DNA of 64,000 bases from Actinomycetaceae bacterium. Its GTDB lineage: Bacteria > Actinomycetota > Actinomycetes > Actinomycetales > Actinomycetaceae. The DNA is taken from assembly GCA_030524055.1 (NCBI GenBank), contig JAUNHH010000003.1, positions 124,001-188,000 of the forward strand, read 5' to 3'. Numbering within the stretch: the stretch's first letter is position 1; every line of letters starts with the position of its first letter. Below, piece after piece: positions 5,161 to 63,076 of this stretch. The notes under the pieces are model-generated. The model worked only from the letters and a program-made list of their open reading frames with translations, made no database searches and was not told the origin of the DNA. A program made the position numbers and the translations under genes.

Positions 5161-5293
5161 CGCCGGACCTTTCCCCATGGACAATGCTTTCCGTACTGGC
5201 AACAGCGCCAGATCGCTGAGAAATATTATGCGCTTCCCCGCGAAAAAGGCACCACCCCGTCCTCGTAGATTCTTTAGAGCGCCACCGCGGCTG

Positions 5294-5304
5294 CGCTGTT
5301 GGCG
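5294..5304 (+). promoter_or_regulatory. Possible ClgR-type operator upstream of clpP1P2
   Basis: CGC-TGTTG-GCG followed by AAA lies about 130 bases before clpP1. Actinobacterial clpP1P2 promoters are commonly activated by ClgR, whose sites have a CGC-N5-GCG core flanked by A/T. The match is partial and the regulator gene is not in this window. Confidence 0.3.
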
Positions 5305-5432
5305 AAAAGACCCCACCTAAGCCCCAAGCGCACCTCACTTGCCGGTAGGTTTGGGGTAGCAAGAATCCGAGCCTTCCGGGGATGGCCCCCAGGAGCAGGG
5401 CGGCCACGCGCCACCCAAGAGCGGAGGAATAC

Positions 5433-6065
5433 GTGAACACCGAAATTACCGCCCACGAGGGTGGGGCTGCCACCATGGGCCTCGGGGACGCTGTCTACCA
5501 GCGCCTCCTGAAAGAGCGCATTATCTGGCTCGGCGGCGAAGTCCGCGACGAAAATGCCAATGCGATTTGCGCGCAGATGCTGCTGCTTGCCGCTGAAGAT
5601 CCAGAAAAAGATATTTACCTCTACATTAATAGCCCGGGTGGATCGGTGACCGCTGGCATGGCTATTTACGACACCATGCAGTACATCAAGCCAGATGTCG
5701 TGACCGTGGGTATGGGGCTGGCTGCCTCAATGGGGCAATTCCTCCTCACCGCTGGCGCCCCTGGAAAGCGTCTGATCACCCCGCACACTCGCGTTCTTCT
5801 GCACCAGCCGCTGGGCGGGGCAGGCGGTAGCGCCACGGAAATCCGCATTAACGCTGACCTGATCTTGAAGATGAAGGAAGAACTCGCGCAGATCACCGCC
5901 GAGCGCACTGGCAAGACAGTGGAGCAGATCGAAGCTGACGCGGATCGTGACCATTGGTTCAGCGCTCGCGAAGCCCTCGAATACGGTTTCGTTGACCGCC
6001 TGGTTGAGACCCCGCAGGAGATCGGACATCGCGCGGTCCAAGACGCGCAGGATGGAGAGAACTGA
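5433..6065 (+). CDS. clpP1: ATP-dependent Clp protease proteolytic subunit 1
   Basis: 210 residues. The GTG at 5433 was chosen for its GCGGAGG ribosome-binding site six bases upstream. The serine peptidase signature is clear: [17 protein letters not shown], nucleophile in GLAASMGQ (about Ser99), LLHQPLGG (about His124) and an Asp near 169. It forms the heteromeric ClpP1P2 chamber that degrades proteins fed by ClpX or ClpC. clpP2 begins one base after its stop, so the pair is an operon. A one-mismatch copy of the dispersed motif (ACGAGGGTGGGGC, 5455) lies in the first codons. Confidence 0.95.
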
Positions 6066-6066
6066 G

Positions 6067-6723: not shown

Positions 6724-6749
6724 CCCGGGGTAGGTCTCCACATTTCGTT

Positions 6750-6811
6750 ACGAGGGCGGGGAGCCTCTCAGAAGAGAAAGCGTTCTTTTCTTGGGGGCAC
6801 TCCGCCCTCGT
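6750..6811. terminator. Long hairpin after clpP2 built from inverted motif copies
   Basis: ACGAGGGCGG (6750) pairs with CCGCCCTCGT (ends 6811), enclosing an inner imperfect stem of AAGAGAAA against TTTTCTT. CTTTT follows. The position just after clpP2 and before the clpX promoter suggests a terminator. Confidence 0.6.
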
Positions 6812-6932
6812 TGCTTTTACTCGAGTATTTCTGTGGTGTTCGCCTAAGGCGGAGGTCTGCGCGCCGGATGGCACACTTTCCGCTGGTAACATACGCTAAA
6901 TACTAAGCACGCATTATCCATAACAGCATTCC

Positions 6933-6938
6933 TATAAT
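6933..6938 (+). promoter_or_regulatory. -10 box of clpX promoter
   Basis: A perfect TATAAT lies 31 bases before the clpX GTG. No good -35 is seen at the usual spacing. Together with the preceding hairpin it implies that clpX is transcribed separately from clpP1P2. Confidence 0.5.
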
Positions 6939-6969
6939 CCCGGGTTGCACGTCCAGTCAGGAGATCCTC

Positions 6970-8229: not shown

Positions 8230-8264
8230 AAACGACCATTCCGCCCTTGAAGAAGGGAAAACTC

Positions 8265-8627
8265 ATGGACGAGGCCGAAGCTCAGCGCATTAGAGCTGGT
8301 GGCGATATTCGCGGCGCGGGCGACGGCCTGCCCGAGGAATTAGTTGAGGCGCGCTCAACCATTGACAATATTGACGCTGCCCTCATTCATATTTTGGCTG
8401 AGCGTTTCCGTTGCACCCAAAAAGTTGGCCATATTAAAGCCCGCTATCGTCTTCCCGCTGGCGATCCGCAGCGCGAAGCGCGGCAAGTGGTTCGTATGCG
8501 TGCGCTCGCCGAATCTGCCGGATTAGACCCGGATTTCGCGGAGAAATTCCTCGATTTCATGGTGACTGAAGTCATCCGCCATCATGAGGACATTAAACTC
8601 GGGTACGAGGGCGGAGCGGCAGAATAA
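8265..8627 (+). CDS. Chorismate mutase, AroQ type
   Basis: 120 residues. ATG 8265 follows an AGAAGGG ribosome-binding site; a TTG at 8247 is the alternative. The all-helical AroQ pattern is visible: RSTIDNIDAALIHILAERF, KVGHIKARY and QREARQVVRMRALAE. The enzyme converts chorismate to prephenate for Phe and Tyr synthesis. It is a monofunctional cytoplasmic form, as is common in actinobacteria. The last codons (YEGGAAE) are encoded by a copy of the dispersed motif at 8606-8618, past the catalytic helices. Confidence 0.85.
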   Translation: MDEAEAQRIRAGGDIRGAGDGLPEELVEARSTIDNIDAALIHILAERFRCTQKVGHIKARYRLPAGDPQREARQVVRMRALAESAGLDPDFAEKFLDFMVTEVIRHHEDIKLGYEGGAAE

Positions 8628-10276: not shown

Positions 10277-13000
10277 TCAGCCCTTCTTTCGCGGGGGCGC
10301 CTCGCCAAGTTCACTGGTCACGACGGTAACTGGGGCCCGGCCCTCGTCACCATCAACGACGGAGAAGGAAGCCTGCCCCTCAATGCGCATTGCCGCCGAT
10401 AGATCCGGCGAAATAGCGCGCAAAGCCGCGATCGTCGCCTCATCGGCACCAATGGTGACCGCCAAGAAAGGCGTCCGCGGTGAGACTTTCGCCTCAGACT
10501 TCACACGACGAAGCACAATCAAAGCTGCCGAAGCTGCCTGGAGAATCGACCTATCCCCATCAACGTCAGCCAATTCATCGACGCTTGGCCAGCTAGCGGT
10601 ATGCACCGAACCTTCGCGGTACCACGACCACACTTCCTCAGTGACAAAAGGCAGGTAGGGAGCCAAAAGGCGAACCACCGTATTAATCACCACGGCCAAA
10701 GCCACCTGCGCGGAACGAGCCTGATCCGCATCCCATGAACCATCACGGTTATAGGCACGTTCCTTGACCAATTCCAAATAGTCGTCGCAGAAGGTCCAGA
10801 AGAAGGACTCCGTCACCTCCAGGGCTTTCGTGTGATCATAAGCAGCCAAAGCCTGATTCGCTGTCGCAACGACCTCACGCAGTTCGGCAAGAACCGAACG
10901 GTCAAGAGGCACGGTCACCTGGCTCGGGTCAAGAATGACATCCGCGCCCTCTCCACCCATGGTCAGCGCAAACTTTGACGCATTCAGCACCTTAATGGCC
11001 AAACGACGCCCAATCTTCATTTGAGCTTCGTCGAAAGTCGCATCCAGGCCAAGGCGAGCCGACGCCGCCCAATAGCGCACCGCATCTGAGCCATACTTTT
11101 CGAGCAGGCCCATTGGCGTAACGACATTGCCTTTCGATTTCGACATCTTCTTGCGATCCGGATCCAAAATCCACCCGGAAATCGCCGCATGGCGCCACGG
11201 CAGTGCGCCAAACTCTAGATTTGCGCGCACCACGGTAGAGAACAGCCAGGTGCGAATAATGTCCTGACCCTGCGGACGCAAATCCATGGGGTAGGTGCGA
11301 GCGAAAAGATCCTCATCGTGCAGCCAACCGCAGGCCAATTCAGGCGACAACGACGAGGTTGCCCACGTATCCATAATGTCTAACTCAGGGGCAAAACCGC
11401 CCGGCTTACCGCGCTGATCTTCAGTAAATCCTTCTGGCGTATCGGTAGAAGGATCAACAGGAAGAGCATCTTCATTTGCCGGAATAATCTGGTCATAATC
11501 AATGGTGCCATCGTCACTAATGCGATACCACAGTGGGAAAGGCACACCAAAGAAACGCTGACGAGAAATCAGCCAGTCATTATTGAGACCGCGCACCCAA
11601 TTCTCATAGCGCACCCGCATAAAGTCCGGGTGGAACTCTAAATCCTGCCCGCGACCAATCAATTCCTCACGAAGATCCGCACCAGAGGCCGGATTCACCC
11701 ACGACTTTCCGCCATTACGGATATACCACTGGCGGGAGGTGACGATTTCCAGCGGCTTATCGCCCTTCTCAAAGAAGTTTGTTTGGCGGGTGGTCTTTTG
11801 GGGTTCGCCACGCATTTCCCCCGATGCCGACAGGCGGGCAACAACGGCTTCACGGGCCGAGTAAGTGGTTTTCCCGGCGATTTCCTCGAAAGCAGCAATG
11901 CCTTCTGCGGAAGTAATCCAATCGGGGGTTTCGCTGTGAATACGGCCGTCTTTGCGCAAAATAGCGCGCAGCGGAAGAGAAAGGTCACGCCACCAATCAA
12001 TATCGGTGGTATCGCCAAAAGTACAGCACATAGCAATACCGGCGCCCTTATCTTTTTCTGCCGCTGGGTGGGCAATAACAGGAACTTCCACGCCGAAAAT
12101 AGGGGAGGTCACTGTGGTGCCAAAAAGCGGCTGGTAACGCTCGTCATCAGGGTGAGCAATGAGAGCCACACATGCGGGCAGAAGCTCCGGACGGGTCGTT
12201 TCAATACACACATCCACGCCATTTTCAATGGGGGCGCCCGCCGCCGCGGCAGTGGCAGCCGCTTCAGGGTCAGTCAGGTGGAAGGCAAGGCGGTGATAGA
12301 AACCGGGGTATTCGCGCGATTCCAATTCGGCCTGAGCCACAGCCGTTTGGAAAGTGACATCCCACAGGCCAGGGGCTTCACTCTGGTAGGCCTCACCACG
12401 GGCAAGATTGCGCAGGAAAGCAGCCTGAGCGACTTTACGGGCACGGCGGCCAATCGTTTGGTAGTTCTGCGACCAATCGACAGACAAGCCCAGGTAGCGC
12501 CAGAGAGCTTCAAATTGTGCTTCGTCAAGGGCAGTGAGTTTTTCGCAGAGCTCGACGAAATTCTTCCGCGAGATCGGGACCTGATCGGCAGCCTTAATGG
12601 ATTTGCCTTCCCCGCCCTCGTGTGGGGGGACGAAGTCAGGGTCATAGGGCAAGGTGGCGTCTACGCGCACCCCGTAATAGTTCTGTACTCGGCGTTCGGT
12701 GGGCAGACCATTGTCATCCCAGCCCATCGGGTAGAAAACAGATTTGCCCAGCATGCGCTGGTAGCGCGCAATAACGTCAGTATGGGTATAGGAAAAGACG
12801 TGACCAACGTGCAGAGATCCCGAAACCGTTGGGGGAGGGGTGTCAATGGAGTAGACCTGCTCGCGCGGCGCGGTGCGGTCAAAAGTGTAGGTGCCGTGGT
12901 CGTGCCAGAGGCCATCCCACTTATCCTCAAGGCCTTCGGCCCCGACCTTGTCTGGAACCTGCGGGGCTGGGACTGATGTGGGTGTGGGGGGTGTTGCCAT
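10277..13000 (-). CDS. valS: Valyl-tRNA synthetase
   Basis: 907 residues from ATG 13000 (MATPPTPTS); an upstream in-frame start at 13039 would add 13 residues. It is a class I synthetase with the HIGH-type motif SGSLHVGHVFSYTHTDV near residue 60 and KMSKSKGN in the C-terminal half. The editing domain lies between them and an anticodon-binding domain at the end. It charges tRNA-Val. Editing-domain residues ETTRPELLPACVALIAH fit the ValS/IleS/LeuS group, and DNGLPTERRVQNYYGV fits ValS. A full copy of the dispersed motif at 12611-12622 lies in the coding region. Confidence 0.95.
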   Translation of the reverse strand: MATPPTPTSVPAPQVPDKVGAEGLEDKWDGLWHDHGTYTFDRTAPREQVYSIDTPPPTVSGSLHVGHVFSYTHTDVIARYQRMLGKSVFYPMGWDDNGLPTERRVQNYYGVRVDATLPYDPDFVPPHEGGEGKSIKAADQVPISRKNFVELCEKLTALDEAQFEALWRYLGLSVDWSQNYQTIGRRARKVAQAAFLRNLARGEAYQSEAPGLWDVTFQTAVAQAELESREYPGFYHRLAFHLTDPEAAATAAAAGAPIENGVDVCIETTRPELLPACVALIAHPDDERYQPLFGTTVTSPIFGVEVPVIAHPAAEKDKGAGIAMCCTFGDTTDIDWWRDLSLPLRAILRKDGRIHSETPDWITSAEGIAAFEEIAGKTTYSAREAVVARLSASGEMRGEPQKTTRQTNFFEKGDKPLEIVTSRQWYIRNGGKSWVNPASGADLREELIGRGQDLEFHPDFMRVRYENWVRGLNNDWLISRQRFFGVPFPLWYRISDDGTIDYDQIIPANEDALPVDPSTDTPEGFTEDQRGKPGGFAPELDIMDTWATSSLSPELACGWLHDEDLFARTYPMDLRPQGQDIIRTWLFSTVVRANLEFGALPWRHAAISGWILDPDRKKMSKSKGNVVTPMGLLEKYGSDAVRYWAASARLGLDATFDEAQMKIGRRLAIKVLNASKFALTMGGEGADVILDPSQVTVPLDRSVLAELREVVATANQALAAYDHTKALEVTESFFWTFCDDYLELVKERAYNRDGSWDADQARSAQVALAVVINTVVRLLAPYLPFVTEEVWSWYREGSVHTASWPSVDELADVDGDRSILQAASAALIVLRRVKSEAKVSPRTPFLAVTIGADEATIAALRAISPDLSAAMRIEGQASFSVVDGDEGRAPVTVVTSELGEAPPRKKG

Positions 13001-17584: not shown

Positions 17585-18478
17585 ATGAATGTCATTGAGC
17601 GTCTCCGTCAAGCCAGTGCGACGCGGGCAGTGGTATGGCCAGATGACGAACCTGAGGAGGAGCGTCATCTGCTTCGTGTACTGCCGAGCCCTGGTGTGGG
17701 GTGGGCGCTGATGGTGACCATTCTGGTGATTGCTGGCATAGGGGTGTGGCGTCTTGTGGGCGGCGCGTCGGGTGCTTCCCTTCCTTCTCATCCGCAGCCG
17801 TCGGCTATATCCCAGCCAGCGTCACCCTCTTCCCAGGTGGCCTCTCAGTCGGGGCAGGGTGGGGCTGCGCCGCTTGCTTCCCCGGCGCCAACGTCGGGAC
17901 CTGCAGCTTCCACCCCACTGGGCGCTGCACATCACAACACGCAGCCTCCAGCCCAGTCGGGAACACCGCACCCCGGCAGCTCTCAAGCCACGAATCAGAT
18001 GGTCACTGTGCATATTGCTGGTGCAGTGGCCAAACCTGGGGTGGTGACTGTGCCTGTGGGGTCACGAGTGTATGAGGCAGTGAATCGGGCGGGTGGGCCA
18101 GCGGAACAGGCGGATATGTCTGCGGTGAATTTGGCGCGTGTCCTCGTTGATGGTGAACAGATTGTGATCCCTCTTCAGGGGCAGACCCCGCCTCCTACGC
18201 AGACATCCCCGCAGGCAGAGTCGCCAGCAGGATCATCGCCGGGGCCGGCCCAACCTGGCTCCTCGAATGCCGGGCAGGCGCAGGGCTGTATTGACCTTGT
18301 CACCGCTGATATCACTCAATTGCAGGAACTTGATGGGGTGGGGCCAGCATTGGCGAAAAGGATTGTGGCTCACCGTGACTCTGGGGGCAGTGTGGCCACT
18401 TTGGCCGATTTGGATGCGGTCAGCGGTATTGGCCCGGCCCTACTAGAGCGGATTGGGGCCACGTCATGTCAGAAATAG
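17585..18478 (+). CDS. comEA: Competence protein ComEA, DNA-binding receptor
   Basis: 297 residues: a cytoplasmic N-terminus, one membrane helix (WALMVTILVIAGIGVWRLV), a long Ser/Pro/Gln linker, an SLBB domain (VTVHIAGAVAKPGVVTVP) and a C-terminal helix-hairpin-helix pair (LQELDGVGPALAKRIVAHR, VSGIGPALLERIGA) that binds DNA. In competent bacteria ComEA hands captured DNA to the ComEC channel. It overlaps comEC by 13 bases. The ATG lies six bases after TAGCGT with no ribosome-binding site, suggesting a leaderless start. The HerA-like gene diverges. Confidence 0.93.
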   Translation: MNVIERLRQASATRAVVWPDDEPEEERHLLRVLPSPGVGWALMVTILVIAGIGVWRLVGGASGASLPSHPQPSAISQPASPSSQVASQSGQGGAAPLASPAPTSGPAASTPLGAAHHNTQPPAQSGTPHPGSSQATNQMVTVHIAGAVAKPGVVTVPVGSRVYEAVNRAGGPAEQADMSAVNLARVLVDGEQIVIPLQGQTPPPTQTSPQAESPAGSSPGPAQPGSSNAGQAQGCIDLVTADITQLQELDGVGPALAKRIVAHRDSGGSVATLADLDAVSGIGPALLERIGATSCQK

Positions 18479-20064
18479 TAGGCGCTACTTTCCGCACGCC
18501 ACGCGGGCCGCGGCCCCTTCCGCGTCTTCACGATCGGCGTCTTATTCCGGTGGCGATTGTCGTGTGGGCGGTGATGTGGTGGTCTACTGACGAGGGCGGA
18601 GCGCGTGCACTCACCGGCCTATTTCCGCACGCGGAAGTTTTATGGCCTGTTCTGGCCGTTGTCTGCATTATTAGCGGCGCGGGATTATGTCTGCATAGTT
18701 CCGTGGTGGATCGGGCGCCGCCGCGTCACGGCAATATTCCTGGCGGGAAAATCCGTGCCAGCCTTGGCGTCCTTGCTGTGGCTTGCGGCGCAGCCCTATG
18801 GGTAGGGGACACAGCTATTGCCACCCACCTGGCGGACCCTTTACCACGCGCAATCGGTGAGGGCACCACGAGTATTTCCGCCCGGGTGGTTCTTCTTGAC
18901 GATCCACGGCCACAAGAATCACGGTGGGGGAGAAGCTATAGCGCGTGGGCTGAGGTCAGCGCCGTCCAGATCGGCAACCGCCCCTGGGAGCGCTCTGCCG
19001 TGCGGGTCACTATTCGCAGCCCTGATCTGGATGCTTATGCGCGTGCGGATATTCTTCAGGTCCGCGGGAAAATCGATCCCTCATTCTTTTCTCACCCTCC
19101 TGCAGTTGGGCTTCTCCGTGCGAATTCGCTGACTCTTGTCGAGCGTCCAGGCGGGTGGCAGGGGCTGGTCCGCGATATTCGTGCCTCATTAGTGCGAATT
19201 TGTGCCTCCCTTAATCCGCAGGGGCGGGGGCTGGTCCCAGGAATGGCTATTGGCGATGACCGTGCTTTAAGTAGCGACCTTAAAGACGATATGCGTACTA
19301 CTTCGCTCGCGCATTTAACAGCCGTATCGGGATCGCATATTGCCATTCTTTTAGGATGCCTGGTGTATTGCGTGCGCAGCTTTTGGGGGCGCGTGGCTGC
19401 CACCACTGTTCTTCTTATCGTTATTGTCCTTCTTGTTGGCCCGCAAGCCTCCGTTATCCGTTCGGTGGCAACCAGTTCCATTGGCCTGATTGGCCATATT
19501 CTTGGGCGCCCCCACCATTCTCATAGCGCTTTAGCAGCAGTTGTTATTGCCACTGTCCTACTCGACCCGTGGGCGGCCCACCACTTGGGATTTGCTCTCT
19601 CTGTTGTCGCCACCTGGGCGGTAATTGGCCCAGCAACCAGCCTCCAGATATACGCGCGCCACCACGATTGGGGCCGCTGCGCCCGCCTATGCCTCACATG
19701 GGTGTCCATCCCCCTGTGCTGCCAGATTGCGGTAACCCCACTGCTGCTTCTTATTGATGAAGAGGTCCCGACCTGGTCGCTGATTGCTAATCTCCTGGCA
19801 GCCCCAGCGGTTGCCCCGGCCACTCTTTTCGCTGTGGCGGCAGCGCTCGCGGCCCTTCCTTTCCCAGAGCTTGCCGCCATACTTGCCAGCTCGGCTTCCT
19901 TTTTTACTGGGTGGGTAGCTCTGATTGCTGAGGGTATTGCCGATTGGCCGTGGGCCCGTATCCCCATACCTGGGGGCGCACTGGCAGCATCCATTGTCCT
20001 CATCGGTATCGCCACCACCATTGGCTGGTGGCGATGGAAGAGTGGCGCACAGGAGGTGGTGTAG
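18466..20064 (+). CDS. comEC: Competence protein ComEC, DNA uptake channel (no lactamase domain)
   Basis: 532 residues. It has several N-terminal membrane helices, an OB-like exported segment (STSISARVVLLDDP region) and then the competence domain (TSLAHLTAVSGSHIAILLG) with a bundle of membrane helices to the C-terminus. It forms the channel for single-stranded DNA across the membrane. The C-terminal metallo-beta-lactamase domain found in Bacillus ComEC is absent and the protein ends after the helices. A perfect copy of the dispersed motif (18590-18602) encodes STDEGGARAL near residue 45. It is followed closely by holA. Confidence 0.93.
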   Translation: MSEIVGATFRTPRGPRPLPRLHDRRLIPVAIVVWAVMWWSTDEGGARALTGLFPHAEVLWPVLAVVCIISGAGLCLHSSVVDRAPPRHGNIPGGKIRASLGVLAVACGAALWVGDTAIATHLADPLPRAIGEGTTSISARVVLLDDPRPQESRWGRSYSAWAEVSAVQIGNRPWERSAVRVTIRSPDLDAYARADILQVRGKIDPSFFSHPPAVGLLRANSLTLVERPGGWQGLVRDIRASLVRICASLNPQGRGLVPGMAIGDDRALSSDLKDDMRTTSLAHLTAVSGSHIAILLGCLVYCVRSFWGRVAATTVLLIVIVLLVGPQASVIRSVATSSIGLIGHILGRPHHSHSALAAVVIATVLLDPWAAHHLGFALSVVATWAVIGPATSLQIYARHHDWGRCARLCLTWVSIPLCCQIAVTPLLLLIDEEVPTWSLIANLLAAPAVAPATLFAVAAALAALPFPELAAILASSASFFTGWVALIAEGIADWPWARIPIPGGALAASIVLIGIATTIGWWRWKSGAQEVV

Positions 20065-22422: not shown

Positions 22423-23439
22423 ATGGCACGCACACGCTCACTCCGTTCCACACAAAAGAGAAAGAGTCGCGCTCGCCGCCGCTTACCGCGTGCGCCACAT
22501 ACGCGCCAGATCTGCCCAGGGATGGAAATCCCCGCCAATATTCCAGGCCTGGATACCGCTATTGCCCTGCACACCCAAGGTGACTATGACCAGGCAATAG
22601 AGCACCTTTGTGCCGCCATTACCGATGACTTACCTGCCCTCTACCAAGTGGTCTGCCTCAAAATGCTCGTTGAATGGTGCGCCCAACAAGACCGACCAAT
22701 GGACGCCAAACACCATAGTGGCCGCGCTGTTGCCATTGCAGATAAAGCTTTTGGGGCCCGCGACATTATGACCCTTATGCTGCGCAATTCCCACCTGTAT
22801 TGGATGAATGTGTGCGGCTATGGTGAAGTCGCTCAAAAGTACTACCCCGCCCTCGTCGATGATATTGAGCAGGCTCTCGGACGTGACCACGACCTGTGTT
22901 GGGCCGCCCGAAATAACGCCATTATGCCCCTCAAGGACCAAGGGCTATGGGAAGAAGCTGCCGAGGCCTACCAGCAGCTCGCAGACGATATGAGCGACTA
23001 TCTTTACGCCTCCCACCCGAATCTTCTTGCTGTCCGCCGTCATCTTGGGCAGGCCTATTCCATGGCCGGACACTACGACCGCGCTATTAGCGTCTTTTCT
23101 GATCTTCTTGCCACCCTGCTCACCACAACCTCACGCGGCAATGACACCATCCTTTCCCTTCGTGACGACATTGCAGAAAACCACTTTTACGCGGGAAGAA
23201 AAGACGACGCCCGCGATATGTGGACGGTGCTTGCTGCTGACTGCCTGCGCTACCTGGGGCCCGCCCACCCCTTAACAATCCGCCAGCACACCATTCAGAT
23301 TTCCTTCGCCATTGACGATGGCGACGAAATCGCCGTAGACCAGTGGATGCAGCGCCTTCGTGAAGCCATTCCACCAGATGGGGATATGAGTGACCTTCCG
23401 CCCCTAGAGTTTCTGATCCGCAATCCCTGGGCCGATTAG
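22423..23439 (+). CDS. Tetratricopeptide-repeat protein
   Basis: 338 residues with an AAGGAGA ribosome-binding site. A short, very basic N-terminus (RKSRARRRLPRAPHTR) precedes helical repeats typical of TPRs (ALHTQGDYDQAIEHLCAAI, LGQAYSMAGHYDRAISVFSDL). It is cytoplasmic, with no signal or membrane segment. Such proteins mediate protein contacts; the partner is unknown. A full copy of the dispersed motif (22845-22856) encodes YYPALVDD between helices. Confidence 0.75.
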   Translation: MARTRSLRSTQKRKSRARRRLPRAPHTRQICPGMEIPANIPGLDTAIALHTQGDYDQAIEHLCAAITDDLPALYQVVCLKMLVEWCAQQDRPMDAKHHSGRAVAIADKAFGARDIMTLMLRNSHLYWMNVCGYGEVAQKYYPALVDDIEQALGRDHDLCWAARNNAIMPLKDQGLWEEAAEAYQQLADDMSDYLYASHPNLLAVRRHLGQAYSMAGHYDRAISVFSDLLATLLTTTSRGNDTILSLRDDIAENHFYAGRKDDARDMWTVLAADCLRYLGPAHPLTIRQHTIQISFAIDDGDEIAVDQWMQRLREAIPPDGDMSDLPPLEFLIRNPWAD

Positions 23440-25415: not shown

Positions 25416-25480
25416 CAGGAATGTCGCCTGTGCGTCCCAGTTACGAGGGCGGAGCCAACCCCCCACAGGGCGAGGTCTTT

Positions 25481-35194: not shown

Positions 35195-35304
35195 GCACCC
35201 CACAGTAGCAATCCTGACGCGTGGGCGAATCAGCCCTGGGGCTGAAAAAATATCTGGCCCAAGGGATGATGTGGCCGCTCATGCGTGCGGGCCACCATTG
35301 CCCC

Positions 35305-40486: not shown

Positions 40487-40491
40487 TTCCC

Positions 40492-44582: not shown

Positions 44583-44617
44583 GCCCCGCCCTCGTGAAAA
44601 AGTGACGAGGGCGGGGC
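44583..44617. terminator. Perfect 13-bp hairpin from two inverted motif copies after leuA
   Basis: GCCCCGCCCTCGT (44583-44595), nine bases, then ACGAGGGCGGGGC (44605-44617). Both arms are exact full-length copies of the dispersed motif. It starts six bases after the leuA stop. No U-run follows. Confidence 0.75.
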
Positions 44618-44688: not shown

Positions 44689-45984
44689 ATGACTACTCCT
44701 TTAAAGCTCCGCAGATATTCCGCGCTTCTTTTCGCTACAGCGTTGCTCATGGGGGCCTGCTCCTCTGGTGGTGGGAGCACCTCAAATGACACTGTCAATG
44801 CTGCGGCAAGCAGTGAACAGCACGCTAGTAGCAGCGGCAGTGGTCCTAGTGAGGCGGCTGCCTCTGCTCCTTCGGCAGCCAGTCAAGTATCTGGTGAGGC
44901 TGATGCCGCTCACCTCCCGACTGTTCCTGGATATGCTCCCGGAGAAATCCCTGCAATCCCCTTATTTCTTATTCCTGATACCTCAGTCATCTCCTCGAAA
45001 GACTCCAAATTCGACTTTGGAAAAACGGAAGCGATTGCCTCTATTCCCGGCGTTACTATTGCTCCCGCAAAATGTGAGGGAAATGTCGTCACCTCTGGGA
45101 ATATGATTCTTGGTGGCGACGGTAGCGGTAACAATTATCAGGACAAAGAAACCACTGTGAATGGTGGCGATGGGTCTGGTAGTTATATTGACGACGCCAA
45201 TAAAATCACCATTACAAATGGTGGCGATGGCAGCGGAATGTACGTTAATGACCTCACCAAAGAAACCATTACGGTAGACAGCACTGGTAAGGGCACCTAT
45301 GTCAACGACCTCACCAAAGAAACCTATGTGATTGGTGGTGACGGCACCGGTAACTATGTCAATGACACCACTAAAGAGAATATTCTTATTGGTCCCAATG
45401 GCACCGGAACCTATATTAATGAGCAGGCCGGCATTACCATTATTAATGGCGGCGATGGCACATCCACCTATACGAATAAAAAGCTCAATCTGAATATCCG
45501 CAATGGGGGCAATGGTTTTGCCTATGTGAATAACCAAAGAATTCCAGCCAAACCTACACCGCCTGTCCCGCGCCTGGGGAAAATGGCTCCTATTCCCGCT
45601 GTTGCCCCCGTTCAGTCCTGTGGCACAGTCATTACCCTTGAAGACGGTGTCCTTTTTGACTTTGGGAAATCCGAGGTGCGAGCTGATGCCCAAGAAGTTG
45701 TCGATAAACTCGCCACTGTCTTTACTGACCTTAAGGTTCCTCATGCCACGGTCGTAGGGCATACGGATTCTATTTCTGATGATGCGTCAAATATGACTCT
45801 GTCGCAGGAGCGCGCTGGGGCCATTGTCAAAGCCCTTCAAGCCAAGGGAGTGTCAACCGCACTTCAGGCTGAAGGTAAAGGGGAAACTCAGCCGATAACT
45901 CCCAATGAAAATGCTGACGGATCTGATAATCCGGCTGGGCGCCAACTCAATCGTCGGGTGGAGATTTTCGTCCCGAACTTCTAG
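44689..45984 (+). CDS. OmpA-like lipoprotein with 19-residue glycine repeats, copy 1
   Basis: 431 residues. Lipobox LLMGAC with Cys24, so it is membrane-anchored outside the cell. A Ser/Ala linker is followed by a conserved N domain (PGEIPAIPLF, SSKDSKFDFGKTEAIA). About eight 19-residue repeats follow at residues 142-281, consensus GGDGSGxYxNDxTKExxxx. The C-terminal OmpA/peptidoglycan-binding domain (LFDFGKSEVRADA, VVGHTDSIS, GRQLNRRVEIFVPNF) keeps the Asp and Arg that contact the peptide stem. The OmpA domain implies wall binding; the function of the repeats is unknown. Confidence 0.88.
   Translation: MTTPLKLRRYSALLFATALLMGACSSGGGSTSNDTVNAAASSEQHASSSGSGPSEAAASAPSAASQVSGEADAAHLPTVPGYAPGEIPAIPLFLIPDTSVISSKDSKFDFGKTEAIASIPGVTIAPAKCEGNVVTSGNMILGGDGSGNNYQDKETTVNGGDGSGSYIDDANKITITNGGDGSGMYVNDLTKETITVDSTGKGTYVNDLTKETYVIGGDGTGNYVNDTTKENILIGPNGTGTYINEQAGITIINGGDGTSTYTNKKLNLNIRNGGNGFAYVNNQRIPAKPTPPVPRLGKMAPIPAVAPVQSCGTVITLEDGVLFDFGKSEVRADAQEVVDKLATVFTDLKVPHATVVGHTDSISDDASNMTLSQERAGAIVKALQAKGVSTALQAEGKGETQPITPNENADGSDNPAGRQLNRRVEIFVPNF
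45112..45531 (+). repeat. Coding repeat block, 57-base unit (lipoprotein copy 1)
   Basis: Seven to eight consecutive 19-codon units such as GGDGSGSYIDDANKITITN and GGDGTGNYVNDTTKENILI. The fixed period with Gly and Tyr at constant places suggests a beta-solenoid or beta-roll. Confidence 0.8.
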
Positions 45985-46009: not shown

Positions 46010-46048
46010 GGGCCCCGCCCTCGTAGATGTGTGACGAGGACGGGGCCC
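46010..46048. terminator. Motif-pair hairpin after lipoprotein copy 1
   Basis: GGGCCCCGCCCTCGT (46010-46024) and ACGAGGACGGGGCCC (46034-46048) form a 15-bp stem with one mismatch and a nine-base loop. The right arm is a one-mismatch copy of the dispersed motif. Confidence 0.7.
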
Positions 46049-47491: not shown

Positions 47492-48751
47492 ATGACCTCC
47501 ACTTCGACAAAGCTACGGCGCCCTGGGGCCCTGTGGCATCTTTTCCTTCCGTGCGTTCTTATTTCTCTTTCGGCCTGCACCGCGACATTAACCGGCAGTG
47601 GCGTAGAGGCAAATGGTGGAGAGTCGCAGGACACAGCCAATAGTGCTGAACAGGCAATAGCTTCTGACGAGGGCGGGGTGCAATCGGCAGATATCCCCAC
47701 TATTCCTGGATATAACGTTGGCGAGTTTCCCGCCATTCCTCTTATTTCTGTTCCAGATGCGTCAGTGACTGGCCTCAATAACTCGAAATTCTCATTCAGT
47801 GCTACGGAAAAGCTTCGCGCTATTCCCGGGATTACCTTGGCGCCGGCAGTATGTGATGGACCAACGGTCTCGCCAGGAACAGTGATTATGTCCAATTCTG
47901 GAGGGAAAGCGAAAACCTCAGTAGGTTCTAGCGCCCCTGGACCTGAGGATGGGGTGGGAGTGTATATTGACGGCCCCGTCATTATTACCAAAAATGCTGA
48001 CGGCTCAGGTGCCTATATGGATGATGTCGTCAACCTGGTGATCTATGGCGATGGGGGAGGTAACTATACGAATTCCGAAACACTGGAGGACATTCATGTC
48101 GATCCAAGTGGCAGCGGAAGTTATGACAATCCGCTGACAGGGGAGAGCATTACCGCCGATGGTGAAGGCGGCGGAACCTACCGTTTCGGTTCAGCAATAG
48201 TGACCAATAATGGCGACGGATCCGGTAGCTATATCGATGATTCCCTCACCATTATTAATGACGGAGAAGGTAGCGCCACCATTACCTGGGAGGGGGGTAG
48301 TGCCACAGTCAGTGCCAAACTTCTTCCCACGGTCCCCAAAGTGGCCTCCTTTGACCCTATTCCCGCGGTGGCGCCCATTCAAAGCTGTGGGGTCGTCATT
48401 TCCCTGCGTTCAGAAATACTTTTTGACTCTGGTGCCCCACAGGTGAATGCCACTGCTGATAAACAGCTCCAAGAAGTGGCCTCTGTACTGACCTCTCTTC
48501 AGGTTCCTAAAGCCACTATTAGTGGGCACACCGATTCCCTCGGTGAGGGAAGCGACTCAGGGGAATTGACACGCCACAGGGCTGAAGCTGTGATGGCGGG
48601 CCTACAAAAACACGGCGTAACCGCCGAGATGAATGCCGAAGGTAAAGGCGACTCTCAACCTGTGGCTGATAATGCTCTAGAAGATGGCACAGATAATCCT
48701 GCTGGCCGCCAATTAAACCGCCGGATCGACATTTATGTCCCGAATTTCTAA
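47492..48751 (+). CDS. OmpA-like lipoprotein with degenerate glycine repeats, copy 3
   Basis: 419 residues. Lipobox LISLSAC with Cys29. It is the most diverged of the three: the N domain reads PGYNVGEFPAIPLISVPD, repeats are 17-19 residues and irregular (NADGSGAYMDDVVNLVIY, NGDGSGSYIDDSLTIIN), and the OmpA domain keeps SGHTDSLG and NRRIDIYVPNF. TAATGT lies six bases before the ATG. A full motif copy (47667) encodes ASDEGGVQ in the linker after the lipobox. A response regulator gene begins nine bases after the stop, so the two are probably co-transcribed. Confidence 0.85.
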   Translation: MTSTSTKLRRPGALWHLFLPCVLISLSACTATLTGSGVEANGGESQDTANSAEQAIASDEGGVQSADIPTIPGYNVGEFPAIPLISVPDASVTGLNNSKFSFSATEKLRAIPGITLAPAVCDGPTVSPGTVIMSNSGGKAKTSVGSSAPGPEDGVGVYIDGPVIITKNADGSGAYMDDVVNLVIYGDGGGNYTNSETLEDIHVDPSGSGSYDNPLTGESITADGEGGGTYRFGSAIVTNNGDGSGSYIDDSLTIINDGEGSATITWEGGSATVSAKLLPTVPKVASFDPIPAVAPIQSCGVVISLRSEILFDSGAPQVNATADKQLQEVASVLTSLQVPKATISGHTDSLGEGSDSGELTRHRAEAVMAGLQKHGVTAEMNAEGKGDSQPVADNALEDGTDNPAGRQLNRRIDIYVPNF

Positions 48752-51965: not shown

Positions 51966-51969
51966 GGAT

Positions 51970-52482
51970 TTAGGCCCCGCCCTCGTCACTAAGGGAATAA
52001 GCTGCCCGCCTGCGGCGAAGGATCAAGGCGATTCCTCCCCCGATAATCAGGGCGAGAATGGCCGCCCACGCCCACGGACTTCCCGCAATTGCCCCAATTG
52101 CTGTCATCCATACGGCCAAAAGGCCAAGGCCATAGAGTAATGCCCAGGCAATGCAACCGGGAATAGAGGCTAGGGTATAGGTCAGCCATCGAAGGCGGAC
52201 TAAACCGGCCCCAGCAATGACAGCAGTTTGTAATCCGACAGTAAGGAAACACAGGGGAATAATAATGATTCCCCATTTTTCTAAAAGGCCAGCACCCTTA
52301 CGGGGAATGGGACCATTAAACCAGGCAGCAATCTTCTCCCATAATCCTCCGCGGCCCATTCCGGCTATTGCTCCAGCTGCCGCGAAACGCGCTAACCAAT
52401 AGGTGGCTTGAGAGCGGCCAAGGACAACAAAGAAAAGAAAAATGATCAGGGGCACGCCTGAGGATGCCCATTCAGGAGCCAC
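51970..52482 (-). CDS. DedA/VTT-like small membrane protein
   Basis: 170 residues from GTG 52482, which overlaps the fur-family gene and follows a perfect AAGGAGG site. About four or five hydrophobic helices, with GAGLVRLRWLTYTLASIPGCIAWALLYGLG resembling the DedA/SNARE-associated family that moves polyprenyl-phosphate lipids. The assignment is tentative because the protein is short. It ends SDEGGA, encoded by a full motif copy (51973-51986) placed exactly at the C-terminus. Confidence 0.6.
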   Translation of the reverse strand: MAPEWASSGVPLIIFLFFVVLGRSQATYWLARFAAAGAIAGMGRGGLWEKIAAWFNGPIPRKGAGLLEKWGIIIIPLCFLTVGLQTAVIAGAGLVRLRWLTYTLASIPGCIAWALLYGLGLLAVWMTAIGAIAGSPWAWAAILALIIGGGIALILRRRRAAYSLSDEGGA

Positions 52483-55457: not shown

Positions 55458-55467
55458 TCTGAGTGAC

Positions 55468-55501
55468 GAGGGCGGGGCCTCAGTTATGGGGCCCCACCCT
55501 C
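55468..55501 (+). terminator. Intercistronic hairpin between malE and malF
   Basis: GAGGGCGGGGCC (55468-55479) pairs with GGCCCCACCCTC (55490-55501) with one mismatch. The left arm is a full dispersed-motif copy (55466), the right arm a decayed one. It lies inside the operon and so may lower malF-malG expression relative to malE or protect the malE mRNA end. Confidence 0.6.
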
Positions 55502-55540
55502 ACCCTCTCGCCTCGTCTCCTTCAATGTGGAAGTGAATCA

Positions 55541-57118
55541 ATGAGTCTTACCGCTCCACCGAGCGAATCCCATGCGCGCGATGTGACCCGGCGCGGATTC
55601 CTCGTCAAACTCGTTCTCATGATGCTGATTAATGCCCTAGGCATTTACGGTATCTTTACTGCCGGAATGGTCCAGGAATGGACCTTCGTTGGCGTCCTTA
55701 TTGTTTTATTAGTCGGTGTGAACTGGGCTTACTTCTCGCGCAAAGCAATTCCAATGAAGTACCTTGTTCCCGGCATGGTTTTTCTGCTGGTGTATCAGGT
55801 CTTTGTGATGGCCTATACCGGTTATGTCTCGATGACCAACTATGGGCAGGGACATAACTCCACGAAAGAAGATGCGATTGAAGCTCTTCTCCAGCAAAAC
55901 CAAAGCCGCGTTGAAGGGGCAGAAACCACCGGAGCGGCCATTGTTGATCGCGGGGATACTCTTGGTCTAGCCATTATTGATCCCGAATCCGGTAATGTCC
56001 TCATCGGCGATAATGAAACACCTTTAGCTCCCGTTCAAGGCGCCACTGTTGACGGCAAGTCCATTACCGCTATCCCCGGTGAAACTATTCTGGGCCTCGA
56101 TAAACTCCTCTCCCGGCAAACGGAAGTAGCTAAACTTGCCGTCCCCATTAGTGACGATCCTAATGAAGGGTTCTATGTCTCTAATGACGGCAGCACCGGA
56201 TACCGCGCGAAATCCAATCTCGTGTGGGATGAAGCCAGTGGAATAATGACCAATACGGAAACTGGCGTGCAGTATAAGGCTGATGATTCTATTGGAGCCT
56301 TTGTCTCCACCGATGGGAAGAATGAGCAACTCACCCCAGGATGGCGGGTCTTTGTTGGCCTACAGAACTACTTCTCGGCCTTTAATAACCCTGATCTCGG
56401 TGGCCCATTTATTGGCGCCTTAATCTGGTCTTTTGTCTTCGCCTTTGGTTCCGTATTGACCACCTTTGTTTTTGGCCTGTTCCTCGCCCTCGTATTTTCT
56501 GATACCCGGATGAAAGGTCGGCGGATTTACCAGGCTCTGCTGATTTTGCCTTACGCTTTCCCGGCCTTCCTCGGTACCTTGGTGTGGCGCGGCATGCTCA
56601 ATACGGATTATGGATTTATTAACCAGGTCATTCTTGGTGGAGTCAGTATTCCCTGGCTTACTGATGGCCTATTGGCAAAAATCTCCATTATCGGTGTCAA
56701 CCTGTGGCTGGGCTTCCCCTATATGTTCCTTGTCTGTATGGGTGCACTTCAAGCTCTACCGAGCGACATTATGGAAGCAGCAAAGATTGACGGCGCCTCT
56801 GGTCTGCGCACGGTCATCTCCGTGAAATTGCCACTGGTATTGCAAGCAACAGTTCCCCTTCTGATTGCCTCCTTTGCCTTCAACTTCAATAACTTCGCTC
56901 TGATCTTTATGTTGACCCACGGCGGCCCGAATTACCCAGGTTTGTCGGTGCCCGTTGGAGAGACAGATATTTTGATCTCAATGGTCTACAAGATCGCCTT
57001 TGAAGGGGCCAACCCCGACTACGGTTTGGCATCGGCAATGTCTATCCTCATCTTCATTATTGTCGGAGTCATTGCCTGGTTGAGTTTCCGTCAAACTAAG
57101 ACGCTGGAGGAACTCTAA
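55541..57118 (+). CDS. malF: Maltose-type ABC permease MalF
   Basis: 525 residues from ATG 55541. There are three N-terminal membrane helices, then a long extracytoplasmic insertion at about residues 105-255 like the MalF P2 region (NPDSGNVLIGDNE-like, Lys/Thr/Gly-rich). The transport domain follows with six helices and the EAA loop DIMEAAKIDGASGLRTVISVKLPLV that docks the ATPase. The final TLEEL codons overlap the malG start by one base. A partial motif copy lies at 56485. Confidence 0.92.
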   Translation: MSLTAPPSESHARDVTRRGFLVKLVLMMLINALGIYGIFTAGMVQEWTFVGVLIVLLVGVNWAYFSRKAIPMKYLVPGMVFLLVYQVFVMAYTGYVSMTNYGQGHNSTKEDAIEALLQQNQSRVEGAETTGAAIVDRGDTLGLAIIDPESGNVLIGDNETPLAPVQGATVDGKSITAIPGETILGLDKLLSRQTEVAKLAVPISDDPNEGFYVSNDGSTGYRAKSNLVWDEASGIMTNTETGVQYKADDSIGAFVSTDGKNEQLTPGWRVFVGLQNYFSAFNNPDLGGPFIGALIWSFVFAFGSVLTTFVFGLFLALVFSDTRMKGRRIYQALLILPYAFPAFLGTLVWRGMLNTDYGFINQVILGGVSIPWLTDGLLAKISIIGVNLWLGFPYMFLVCMGALQALPSDIMEAAKIDGASGLRTVISVKLPLVLQATVPLLIASFAFNFNNFALIFMLTHGGPNYPGLSVPVGETDILISMVYKIAFEGANPDYGLASAMSILIFIIVGVIAWLSFRQTKTLEEL

Positions 57119-59455: not shown

Positions 59456-59527
59456 TGGTCATATATTGCACGCCTCCGCCCTCGTTCCTGAAATGAACCA
59501 TTGACCAAAACTCGCCCAGCGCCACGG

Positions 59528-59567: not shown

Positions 59568-59589
59568 CCTACGACTAAAGGAGCACAGT

Positions 59590-60984
59590 GTGGCTAAGGG
59601 ACCCTCGCGGCTAGAAAGTGTGATCAGCCTTGCCAAAAGGCGCGGATTTGTTTTCCCCTGTGGAGAAATCTATGGCGGAACCCGTTCTGCTTGGGATTAC
59701 GGCCCCTTGGGCGTTGAACTCAAAGAGAATATTAAGCGCCAATGGTGGCAATATATGGTGCGCTCCCGTGAAGATGTGGTGGGCCTGGATTCCTCTGTGA
59801 TCCTGCCCCGCGAAACCTGGGTGACTTCTGGCCATGTCGCGGCATTTACTGACCCCCTCATTGAATGCACTTCCTGCCATAAGCGTCTTCGTCAGGACGA
59901 ACTACAGGAAACCTACGCCGCAAAACACGCCGTCGAAGACCCGGCCACTGTCACCTCAGATCAATTGGTCTGCCCCAATTGCGGCACCCGCGGACAATTC
60001 ACCGAACCCCGCGCCTTCTCGGGCCTCCTAAAAACCTACCTGGGCCCCGTTGATGACGAATCCGGCCTGCACTATCTGCGCCCAGAAACAGCCCAGGGCA
60101 TCTTTATTAACTACGGGAATGTAGCCACCGCCTCCCGGAAAAAGCCTCCCTTTGGGATTGGCCAAATCGGCAAGTCCTTCCGCAATGAGATTACCCCTGG
60201 GAATTTCATTTTCCGTACCCGCGAATTCGAGCAAATGGAACTCGAATTCTTCTGCGCCCCCGGCACCGACGAAGAATGGCACCAATATTGGATTGACCAC
60301 CGTCTGGCCTGGTACACCGACCTCGGAATTTCCGCCGATAATCTGCGCCTCTACGAGCACCCCCAAGAAAAACTCTCCCACTATTCCAAGCGCACTGTTG
60401 ACCTGGAATACCGTTTCGGATTCCAAGGCAGCGAATGGGGCGAACTCGAAGGCATTGCGAATCGTACCGACTATGACCTCGGCGTCCACTCCGAAGCTTC
60501 CGGCGCAAAACTCGATGTTTTCGACCAAGAGAGCGGTGAACGCTGGACCCCCTATGTCATTGAGCCTTCCGCTGGCCTGACCCGATCCCTTATGGCCTTC
60601 CTTATTGAGGCTTACCACGAAGACGAAGCCCCCAACACGAAGGGTGGCGTTGATAAGCGCACCGTGTTGCGTCTGGATCCGCGCCTGGCCCCTGTGAAAG
60701 TCGCTGTTCTTCCGCTCTCACGCAAAGAAGAACTCACCGGCCCGGCCAAAGAAATCGCCGCCGACCTGCGACGGTACTGGAATGTTGAATATGACGACGC
60801 CGGTGCCGTAGGCCGCCGCTACCGCCGCCAGGACGAAATTGGCACCCCCTACTGCGTGACCTTCGACTTTGACTCGGTGAATGATCAGGCCGTCACTGTG
60901 CGTGACCGCGACACAATGACTCAGGAACGTATTCCTGTTGCCGAGGTCCGTACCTGGCTGCTGGAAAAATTAGGCGCCTGCTGA
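59590..60984 (+). CDS. glyS: Glycyl-tRNA synthetase, homodimeric class II
   Basis: 464 residues from GTG 59590 with AAGGAG. N-terminal [23 protein letters not shown], class II motif 2 around [28 protein letters not shown], motif 3 near [17 protein letters not shown], and a C-terminal anticodon domain. A zinc-like [15 protein letters not shown] pair is inserted after motif 1. It charges tRNA-Gly. This is the single-chain bacterial/archaeal-type enzyme, normally named glyS or glyQS in actinobacteria. Confidence 0.95.
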
Positions 60985-62316
60985 GTGGTTGCCCAAAAGC
61001 GCACGCCATGCGACTACGGCCCGACCTCACCTATTGAGATCGGGCCGCTGCGCCTATGGTCTCCTGTCATCCTGGCTCCAATGGCCGGGGTGACGGATGC
61101 ACCATTTCGGCGCTTGTGCCGCCTCTACGGGGAATCGGGCCTGCCTGCCCATCTGCGCCCCGAATCTGCCGCCCTGCCCTGGGTACCGCAGCCAGTTTTT
61201 CCACACAGCACCGGCCCCGCCCTCGTGAATTCTGCCCCGCAACCCCAGCGTGGGGTGGACGCACCTGCTGGCCTGTATGTCATGGAAATGGTGACTTCTC
61301 GGGCGCTTGTGGAAGGCAAAGCAAAAACCCTGGATATGCTCCGGCCTGACCCGGGTGAGCGAGTACGCAGTGTGCAGCTATATGGGGTGGTCCCCGAGGT
61401 GATGGCCCGTGCCACCCAGATTCTTATTGAACGGGATCTGGCCGACCATGTCGATGTGAATTTTGGCTGTCCCGTCCCTAAGGTCACCAGACGTGGTGGG
61501 GGAGCGGCCCTACCGTGGAAAAAAGACCTTTTTCATGACCTGATTACTGCCGTCATTGGTGCTGCCGAGAAGACGGGAGCCGCCTACGGCCGGGATATTC
61601 CCGTTACCGTCAAAATGCGGATCGGTATTGATAATGACCATGTGACGTGCGTGGATGCGGCACAGACTGCGCAAAATGCGGGGGCTGCTGCTGTGGCCCT
61701 CCATGCGCGCACCCAAGTGCAGCACTATTCCGGGAAAGCCCGGTGGGAGTGGATTGCCCGCCTTAAAGACGCATTAACAGTGCCCGTACTAGGAAATGGC
61801 GATATTTTTTCCGGCGCTGATGCGGCCTTGATGATGGAGGAAACGGGTTGCGACGCGGTGGTTATTGGCCGCGGTTGCCAAGGCCGTCCGTGGATTTTTA
61901 GCGAAATCGTCTCTGCCCTCCATGGGGGAGAGCCCGCCAAGGGGCCAACCTTGGGGCAGGTGGTGTCAGTAATTGAGCAACATGCCCGTTGGATGGTGGA
62001 GACCAAAGGCGATGAGGCGCACGCCATGCGGGAAATGCGTAAACATATTGGCTGGTACCTCCGTGGTTTTCCCGTGGGTGGGCGCACCCGCCACGATCTC
62101 GTGCGCATTACTACACTTGACGGACTCCATGACGTGCTGGCTGGCCTTGACCATAGCCAACCTTTCCCGCTTGCTGCCGAAGGCCCGCGTGGCCGCGCTG
62201 GTGGGGAGAAAATCCCGCATTTGCCGGAGGGCTGGCTCGATTCTCCCTATTTGACTGAGCAGCAAAAAGCCCAATTGCATCTGACTGAAGCGGAAGGAAT
62301 CGCTGATGGGGGATAG
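60985..62316 (+). CDS. dus: tRNA-dihydrouridine synthase (DusB-like)
   Basis: 443 residues; GTG 60985 directly abuts the glyS stop. FMN-binding barrel: LAPMAGVTDAPFRRLCRLYG, VDVNFGCPVPKVTRRGGGAAL (catalytic Cys), and HARTQVQHYSGKA. It reduces uridines in tRNA D loops. Between RRLCRLYG and YVMEMVTSRALV there are about 50 residues, Pro/Ala-rich, more than in typical homologues; the insert contains GPALVNSA from a full motif copy (61213-61226). Confidence 0.9.
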   Translation: MVAQKRTPCDYGPTSPIEIGPLRLWSPVILAPMAGVTDAPFRRLCRLYGESGLPAHLRPESAALPWVPQPVFPHSTGPALVNSAPQPQRGVDAPAGLYVMEMVTSRALVEGKAKTLDMLRPDPGERVRSVQLYGVVPEVMARATQILIERDLADHVDVNFGCPVPKVTRRGGGAALPWKKDLFHDLITAVIGAAEKTGAAYGRDIPVTVKMRIGIDNDHVTCVDAAQTAQNAGAAAVALHARTQVQHYSGKARWEWIARLKDALTVPVLGNGDIFSGADAALMMEETGCDAVVIGRGCQGRPWIFSEIVSALHGGEPAKGPTLGQVVSVIEQHARWMVETKGDEAHAMREMRKHIGWYLRGFPVGGRTRHDLVRITTLDGLHDVLAGLDHSQPFPLAAEGPRGRAGGEKIPHLPEGWLDSPYLTEQQKAQLHLTEAEGIADGG

Positions 62317-63076
62317 GGATGCGGTGATCTGCCGGATTGGGCGGGCAGGTACTGGCCGAGAGGCTGAGTTTGGATGCCGGGCGCAGATTATTGTGCCCAT
62401 TATGGGATCGACTCTTGAGGAATTGAGAGAAGAAATTCGCGCTGCCGCTACAGTCCCCCACGACCTTATTGAGTGGCGGGTTGATGGCTTTGGTCAGTAC
62501 GACCCCGCCGTTATTTCCAGTATTGCCACGGAACTCATGCGGATCAGCGATGTGCCGCTTTTAGCGACAATCCGTACCACTGACGAGGGCGGGGCTGCCG
62601 ATTTATCAGGGGAAGAGTACGCGGCGCTGGTCGCTGTGCTCGCCACGGTTGCCGATGCAGTAGATGTGGAAATCTCCCGTAATGGGGCACCTGCCATTAT
62701 TGCCGAGGCACGTTCTGCCGGGGCATGTGTTGTTGCTTCCTTCCATGACTTTAGTGGTCCGCGCAGCGCTGACCAGCTGATTGAGATCTACCGCTCAATG
62801 AACGAGGCCGGGGCAGATATCCTGAAAACCGCGGTGTATTGCCATAGTGACAGCGATGTTGAGGCCATATGGGATGCTCAAGCGTGGGCGTGGTTGATCT
62901 TAAGACGCCCCATTATTGGCATTGGTATGGGCCGGGCTGGCCAACCCACCCGAATCGTTGGAATGTCGCGCTTTTGTGCGGCAACCTTTGCCTCAGCAGG
63001 CACAGTATCCGCGCCGGGGCAACTTTCCGCACATGACGCGCGAATACTGCTTGACCAGGAAGAATGCGAAACCTAA
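62306..63076 (+). CDS. aroD: 3-dehydroquinate dehydratase, type I
   Basis: 256 residues, overlapping dus by 11 bases. Type I signatures: EWRVDGF near the start, ATIRTTDEGGAADLSGEEY, the catalytic histidine in VASFHDF and the Schiff-base lysine in DILKTAVYC. It forms 3-dehydroshikimate in the shikimate pathway, upstream of chorismate. The conserved R-T-x-x-E-G-G segment is encoded by a perfect motif copy (62583-62595). Confidence 0.9.
   Translation: MGDRDAVICRIGRAGTGREAEFGCRAQIIVPIMGSTLEELREEIRAAATVPHDLIEWRVDGFGQYDPAVISSIATELMRISDVPLLATIRTTDEGGAADLSGEEYAALVAVLATVADAVDVEISRNGAPAIIAEARSAGACVVASFHDFSGPRSADQLIEIYRSMNEAGADILKTAVYCHSDSDVEAIWDAQAWAWLILRRPIIGIGMGRAGQPTRIVGMSRFCAATFASAGTVSAPGQLSAHDARILLDQEECET

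Follow-up and report, generated by a model that had tools for sequence, protein, structure and literature searches.

Two families of Gram-negative bacteria, the Neisseriaceae and the Pasteurellaceae, have well-established DNA uptake sequences. The uptake signal sequence (USS) of the Pasteurellaceae has a core with AT-rich flanks, and its copies are evenly spaced. Another hyper-abundant chromosomal word is HIP1 of cyanobacteria, an 8-base palindrome whose function is unsettled. The neisserial DNA uptake sequence (DUS) is found in and between genes, its inverted pairs are associated with terminators, and its dialects are congruent with the core-genome tree (PMC3630211). Known uptake sequences also have a preferred orientation in reading frames, and those of the Pasteurellaceae are biased to gene termini (PMC2346458). 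In the actinobacterium Micrococcus luteus, tad-1, tad-2 and com genes are all required for transformation (PMC4322843). In searches of open-access PubMed Central, judged by titles and abstract openings, no uptake sequence from the Actinomycetota came up. Here we analyzed a motif with the core ACGAGGGCGG in a 64,000-base stretch of DNA (i.e., the window) from an Actinomycetaceae bacterium (GCA_030524055.1, contig JAUNHH010000003.1, positions 124,001 to 188,000). Judged from sequence, the features of this motif come close to those of an uptake sequence and appear to include most of its hallmarks, and the motif probably serves a Tad/Flp-type competence system as its DNA uptake sequence.

The window belongs to a genome of 3,034,260 bases (47 contigs) and contains 26 exact copies of ACGAGGGCGG, 13 on each strand, while 100 dinucleotide shuffles gave a mean of 0.08 and a maximum of 1. 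This recount agrees with the sequence-only reading made before this analysis, which had reported the same 13/13 split, together with near copies; when up to two mismatches were allowed, the 13-mer form of the motif matched the window 47 times vs. 3.0 expected. The two controls that this reading had proposed, a genome-wide count and a codon-preserving shuffle, both speak for the motif. Genome-wide, ACGAGGGCGG occurs 1,377 times in 3.03 Mb (689 forward and 688 reverse), and the same pattern read backward, used as a control, occurs 13 times (7 and 6 by strand). The resulting density of about one copy per 2.2 kb is similar to that of the neisserial DUS. In 464 kb of this genome (i.e., 220 and 244 kb from two contigs), no 10-mer present at least 15 times exceeds the expectation from base composition by as much as ACGAGGGCGG does (190 vs. 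1.6 expected). When synonymous codons were permuted within each gene of the 464 kb, its 114 coding copies dropped to 5.9 on average (40 shuffles); the abundance of ACGAGGGCGG is not a codon effect. Such over-representation beyond codon usage is expected of DUS and USS. A second family of frequent words (CAATAATG and CAATATCG) was dropped, as its flanks had the three-base periodicity that codon usage would give.

The 190 exact copies in the 464 kb are distributed as 114 in genes, 72 between genes and 4 across a border. Called genes make up 89% of this sequence, which puts the density of the motif in intergenic DNA at about five times that within genes. Copies are balanced between strands, with counts of 48/47 in the 220 kb from one contig and 51/44 in the 244 kb from the other. 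Where neighboring sites are less than 80 bp apart (n = 31, a few overlapping or touching in-gene pairs included), 26 are inverted. The number of intergenic sites per kb is 4.5 in convergent, 1.6 in tandem and 1.3 in divergent gaps. A set of 25 inverted pairs that was found with a slightly different core is divided among convergent gaps (12), tandem gaps (8) and genes (4); 1 pair is unassigned, and divergent gaps have none. For the 46 sites in tandem gaps, the end of the upstream gene is a median of 37.5 bases away and the next start a median of 114.5 bases. With sites within 100 bp merged in both the data and the simulations, spacing along the chromosome is more even than random (coefficient of variation 0.716 vs. 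0.922 ± 0.051; none of 1,000 simulations was as low), and the longest site-free gap in 504 kb is about 7.3–7.4 kb, vs. a median of 9.1 kb under random placement. A scan of viral contigs returned 61 stretches, each with one 15-mer match. Strand balance, sites both in and between genes, even spacing and inverted pairs in gaps with 3′ gene ends are all traits of DUS and USS.

The consensus approximates aTTg-ACGAGGGCGG-GGC, with a weak ATTG directly 5′ of the core, and the flanks are nearly random beyond about 17 positions. Weak AT-rich tracts lie at −9 to −2 and +20 to +25, and are also found at unpaired sites inside genes. Tolerance to change is uneven along the 12-mer ACGAGGGCGGGG: in 121 of its 134 one-mismatch forms, which stand beside 116 exact copies, the change is at position 0, 6, 10 or 11, and the other eight positions account for 13. 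The motif thus appears to be a recognized word and not a decaying repeat, and its nearly random flanks argue against a transposed one.

The competence machinery expected alongside a DUS or USS is found in the same genome at the gene level. A comEA-like gene (17585–18478, + strand), whose product is the predicted DNA receptor, is followed in the window by a short comEC-like gene (18466–20064, + strand), whose 532-aa product is the predicted DNA channel. The former matches Pfam HHH_3 and SLBB (TIGR01259, 69 bits; cut-off 152), and the latter matches Pfam Competence with 145 bits (TIGR00361, 71 bits; cut-off 190), so that both fall under the NCBIfam cut-offs for the canonical forms. No C-terminal metallo-beta-lactamase domain was matched in this ComEC. 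ComEC is encoded by 33 of the 35 genomes of the genus and by all 32 of its good assemblies. The genome also encodes DprA and has two Tad/Flp pilus loci. In one of these loci TadA scores above its NCBIfam cut-off, and two further products, one TadE-like and one a “helicase/secretion neighborhood” helicase, fall just short of theirs; a Flp-like protein encoded there was recognized by eye from an STTVEY stretch. Each of the 15 tad-1 loci examined contains TadA and a Flp-like gene; a TadE-like protein was not recognized in all 15, and no basic pilin-like protein is among those identified there. The N_methyl pilin domain (PF07963) has no match in this genome, and is present in 8 of 14 control genomes. 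Two large genes close to the second tad locus (L237, 770–7449) resemble an AdnAB-type helicase-nuclease pair, as judged by eye from their translations.

On the uptake reading, competence, preferential uptake, the receptor and the direction of cause are the parts that we infer. In natural transformation, the Tad/Flp-pilus competence system would have a surface receptor with a preference for DNA that bears the motif; candidates are ComEA and a minor pilin of the TadE/F type from the conserved tad-1 locus. ComEC would then import one strand, and recombination would place it in the chromosome. Over time such a preference would let evenly spaced copies in both orientations accumulate throughout the genome. 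They would persist where their cost is lowest, i.e., in intergenic DNA, in tolerant codons, and at the 3′ ends of genes, where inverted pairs could also act as terminators. Drift in the taste of the receptor would be followed by drift of the genome dialect, giving clade-specific variants.

The motif is shared with relatives. Among 213 genomes of the family, the 12-mer ACGAGGGCGGGG is most abundant in the genome studied here (1,001 copies; control, 1). The next five counts, 190, 157, 135, 108 and 93, are all from the same genus, and no genome outside the genus has more than 19. Backward patterns understate codon effects in GC-rich genomes, and relatives were therefore judged by comparing all 8-mers with synonymous-codon shuffles of coding DNA only, 40–104 kb per genome. 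This test covered 33 of the 35 genomes of the genus; the fragmented assemblies G017 and G029 were left out, and the genome studied here (G000) entered with 104 of its 464 kb. With the best middle base, CGAGGnCG was among the five highest-ranked of about 32,900 8-mers in 21 of the 33 genomes and ranked 12–20 in 4 more. It did not rank high in G001, G006, G014, G021, G030, G031, G032 and G033. The top words in three of these are ACGAGGCG (G030), ACGAGGCC (G031) and GAGGCAAA (G032), and G014 has 135 genome-wide copies of the 12-mer despite its weak coding test. G030 and G032 are sister species on the ComEC tree (L142–L144; L154, L155, L214), and ACGAGGCG is a word without the variable base. In G021, whose assembly is 70% complete, neither ComEC, nor a strong match to T2SSE, nor a codon-test signal was found, and it still has 89 copies of the C form CGAGGCCGGGG vs. 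13 of the control.

Variation at the middle base follows clades. The genome studied here was labeled G together with nine relatives; G005 was labeled A, two groups were labeled C, and G027 was labeled mixed. CGAGGCCGGGG occurs 192–565 times per genome in nine genomes of one ComEC clade, with balanced strands and 1–11 copies of the backward controls. Mapped on a 31-row ComEC tree (30 of the 35 genomes of the genus and one outgroup), the dialect labels require 9 changes (minimum 6) vs. a mean of 15.5 for shuffled labels, and none of 200 shuffles was as low. It should be noted that these labels were set by the analyst from the synonymous-codon shuffle results, those of G008 and G031 by judgement, that they include a “not seen” label, and that they draw in part on another shuffle run in which intergenic copies were kept unshuffled, making its ratios too low.

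A second form of the word was found in a related genus. In 60 kb of Actinobaculum suis, CGACGnCG is enriched with all four middle bases (22, 25, 22 and 10 vs. 5.0, 5.2, 5.5 and 0.9), and neither CGAGGnCG nor any other of the twelve CGAxGnCG words besides CGACGnCG is. In a test that took in 27 of 80 named loci, CGAGGGCG ranked second in the Actinomycetaceae locus L014 (16 vs. 2.8). It is close to an even call that the Actinomycetaceae possess an old family of uptake sequences of their own, with the core CGA[G/C]GnCG and dialects at two positions, read by a sequence-specific receptor of a Tad/Flp-pilus transformation machinery, evolved independently of DUS and USS, and reaching more than 1,300 exact copies in one species. 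Two further words were encountered in these relatives. In the coding DNA of about 20 kb from Arcanobacterium sp. S3PF19 (L017), CGCGGGCA occurs 15 times vs. 2.6 in codon shuffles and is possibly another frequent word of the family. A. suis also carries an abundant, partly clustered ACyAATTCCGCGGTTT-like repeat (L194, L195, L235; G035:C22:200001-260000), with 32 copies of ACCAATTCCG in 40 kb; it lies partly in called coding DNA (ATTCCGCG, 16 vs. 4.3).

The proposal of the sequence-only reading that the motif might be an uptake sequence is supported at this level: genome counts far exceed expectation, codon shuffles fall far below them, and same-genus genomes carry the motif or its dialects. Likeness to DUS and USS holds for density, strand balance, inverted pairs in 3′-end gaps, even spacing, dialects and competence genes, and fails for orientation preference and gene-end bias, neither of which is strictly required of an uptake sequence. 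These two and several other observations weigh against uptake. Sites inside genes have no preferred orientation (103 sense and 102 antisense) and are uniformly distributed along genes, with no bias to gene ends. Two loci outside the family rank CGAGGnCG forms high in coding DNA, i.e., CGAGGCCG in 22 kb of Bifidobacterium choloepi (L050; 23 vs. 9.8, rank 5) and CGAGGGCG in 22 kb of Actinomycetospora (L081; 18 vs. 7.5, rank 9), and some of the signal may therefore extend beyond the family or stem from codon context. Our confidence in the uptake reading is slightly reduced because of the missing orientation and gene-end biases and these two loci. Since CGAGGCCGGGG is also found in G010 (342 copies), G013 (235) and the genome studied here (196), the dialects are preferences and are not exclusive. 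The 504 kb has no site-free stretch longer than 7.4 kb and hence offers no large foreign island in which depletion of the motif would show. The pilin-like proteins identified in tad-1 loci are near neutral or acidic. Four genomes (G001, G006, G014 and G033) have ComEC and two strong T2SSE matches and do not rank CGAGGnCG high in the codon test; in G029 the 10-mer occurs 295 times, and its assembly, which is 88% complete and in 560 contigs, gave no match to ComEC. M. luteus needs two tad loci, and the small genomes G016, G018, G024, G026 and G032 have a single strong T2SSE (TadA-type) match. Because four of these (G016, G018, G024 and G026) have strong CGAGGCCG enrichment despite the single match, the tad-1 locus alone may be sufficient, if the system works. 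Finally, no report of competence or transformation in the Actinomycetaceae came up among the papers listed by searches of open-access PubMed Central.

The main rival to uptake is a chromosomal mark of another kind, i.e., a genome-marking or nucleoid-organizing site resembling HIP1, at which an intracellular DNA-binding protein or enzyme would act and whose even spacing would reflect chromosome packaging or repair. The sharp sequence tolerance, even spacing and strand balance would fit any mark recognized by a protein, and the ComEC genomes in which the codon test does not detect the motif, as well as the absence of an orientation preference inside genes, point in the same direction. The inverted pairs in convergent and tandem gaps and the clade-clustered dialects, however, match uptake sequences better, and the ACGAGGGCGG motif lacks the palindromic symmetry of HIP1; we consider a mark of this kind rather unlikely. 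A recombination signal of the Chi type, by which an end-processing helicase-nuclease such as AdnAB or RecBCD is regulated, would also be abundant, non-palindromic, G-rich and located inside genes, as the motif is. Chi is polar, with a ratio of about 3:1 on the leading strand in Escherichia coli, whereas the strand counts of the two contigs reject such polarity (p = 3e-7 and 7e-6), provided that each contig lies mostly in one replichore. Inverted pairs and a specificity of 10–13 bases are also unlike Chi, which makes this explanation improbable.

The intergenic inverted pairs in convergent and tandem gaps could form hairpins, as would be expected if the copies were widely copied transcription terminators or regulatory sites, but 60% of the exact sites in the 464 kb (114/190) lie in genes, in both orientations and all frames, and a run of at least four T is near just 9 of the 25 inverted pairs. 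We regard this explanation as very improbable. The least probable of all is that the high copy number reflects a dispersed mobile repeat, similar to repetitive extragenic palindromic (REP) elements or miniature inverted-repeat transposable elements (MITEs), or an artefact of codon usage. A REP or MITE should have shared flanks and randomly decaying copies, whereas conservation beyond the core is limited to weak AT tracts and mismatches are confined largely to four positions; the fall from 114 to 5.9 in codon-preserving shuffles argues against the artefact.

Sites in the window were assigned to genes by our own gene calls, which place 19 of the 26 exact cores inside genes and 7 between them. 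Domain searches confirmed valS, comEC, a radical SAM gene (hemW-like), hrcA, an RNA methyltransferase gene, DUF3097 and an OPT transporter gene as carriers, in agreement with the sequence-only reading, which had named valS, comEC, hemW and hrcA and had also placed copies between genes. The actinobacterial host that it had proposed is likewise borne out: of the named genomes that the search returned, Actinomyces mediterranea has the protein most similar to that of valS (80% over the best segment), followed by other Actinomycetaceae. The first exact copy (6750–6759, +) forms an intergenic inverted pair with 6802–6811 (−) upstream of a clpX-like gene. No exact copy precedes it in the window, and near copies begin at 4045; an RHS-repeat gene lies at 59–1726 in a stretch of lower GC content (0.505 in the first 4 kb). 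The cores that follow are at 8605–8614 (+) in coding sequence (CDS) 8247–8627, 12612–12621 (−) in valS, 18590–18599 (+) in comEC, 22847–22856 (−) in the TPR-protein CDS 22522–23439, 25443–25452 (+) in the methyltransferase CDS 25412–26221, 27396–27405 (+) in the radical SAM (hemW-like) CDS, 28835–28844 (−) in the OPT transporter CDS, 29775–29784 (−) and 30250–30259 (+) in the DUF3097 CDS, and 31300–31309 (−) in hrcA. Further cores lie at 33620–33629 (−) in the RNA methyltransferase CDS 32848–33654, 34734–34743 (−) in CDS 34322–35161, 35318–35327 (+) in CDS 35221–36036, 37942–37951 (+) in CDS 37607–38686 and 40577–40586 (+) in CDS 40483–41649.

Two inverted pairs with loops of 9 come next. The pair at 44583–44617 is intergenic, follows CDS 42823–44577, and consists of two exact 13-mers (cores 44586–44595, −, and 44605–44614, +). 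That at 46012–46046, after CDS 44689–45984, combines an exact 13-mer (core 46015–46024, −) with an A-variant. Its placement, like that of the core at 55466–55475 (+), hinges on the choice of start codon, as longer open reading frames (ORFs) exist: an alternative ORF start at 46027 overlaps the pair, and the 55466 site, just 5′ of the called start of a transporter gene, is inside the longer ORF 55463–57118. The remaining cores are at 47667–47676 (+) in CDS 47492–48751, 51977–51986 (−) in CDS 51970–52482, 59476–59485 (−) between genes, 61217–61226 (−) in CDS 61081–62316 and 62583–62592 (+) in CDS 62306–63076.

Compared with known systems, the motif resembles HIP1 in its hyper-abundance and differs from it as a non-palindromic 10–13-mer with inverted pairs. 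With the USS of the Pasteurellaceae it shares AT-rich flanks, even spacing and strand balance; in contrast to that system, its AT tracts are weak and lie on both sides of the core, and it is neither enriched at gene termini nor oriented within genes. The Flp/Tad-dependent transformation of M. luteus is a parallel in the same phylum, with comEA/comEC, two tad clusters and no other type IV pilus genes (PMC4322843), although in five relatives here a single strong match of the TadA type was found, and the term “uptake sequence” is absent from the main text of that paper. If the uptake reading is true, the motif would be an independent Gram-positive case associated with a Tad-type pilus, which would show self-recognition during transformation to be a trait that evolves repeatedly; the motif would also provide a comparative system of many dialects for the co-evolution of receptor and genome, and would predict natural competence in the Actinomycetaceae. 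In comparison with the DUS of the Neisseriaceae, the sequence is unrelated, the host is Gram-positive, the pilus genes are of the Tad/Flp type, and no receptor like ComP, the neisserial type IVa N-methyl minor pilin, was identified in this genome, where the search with PF07963 was empty; what the two have in common is a short word in and between genes, its inverted pairs and its dialects.

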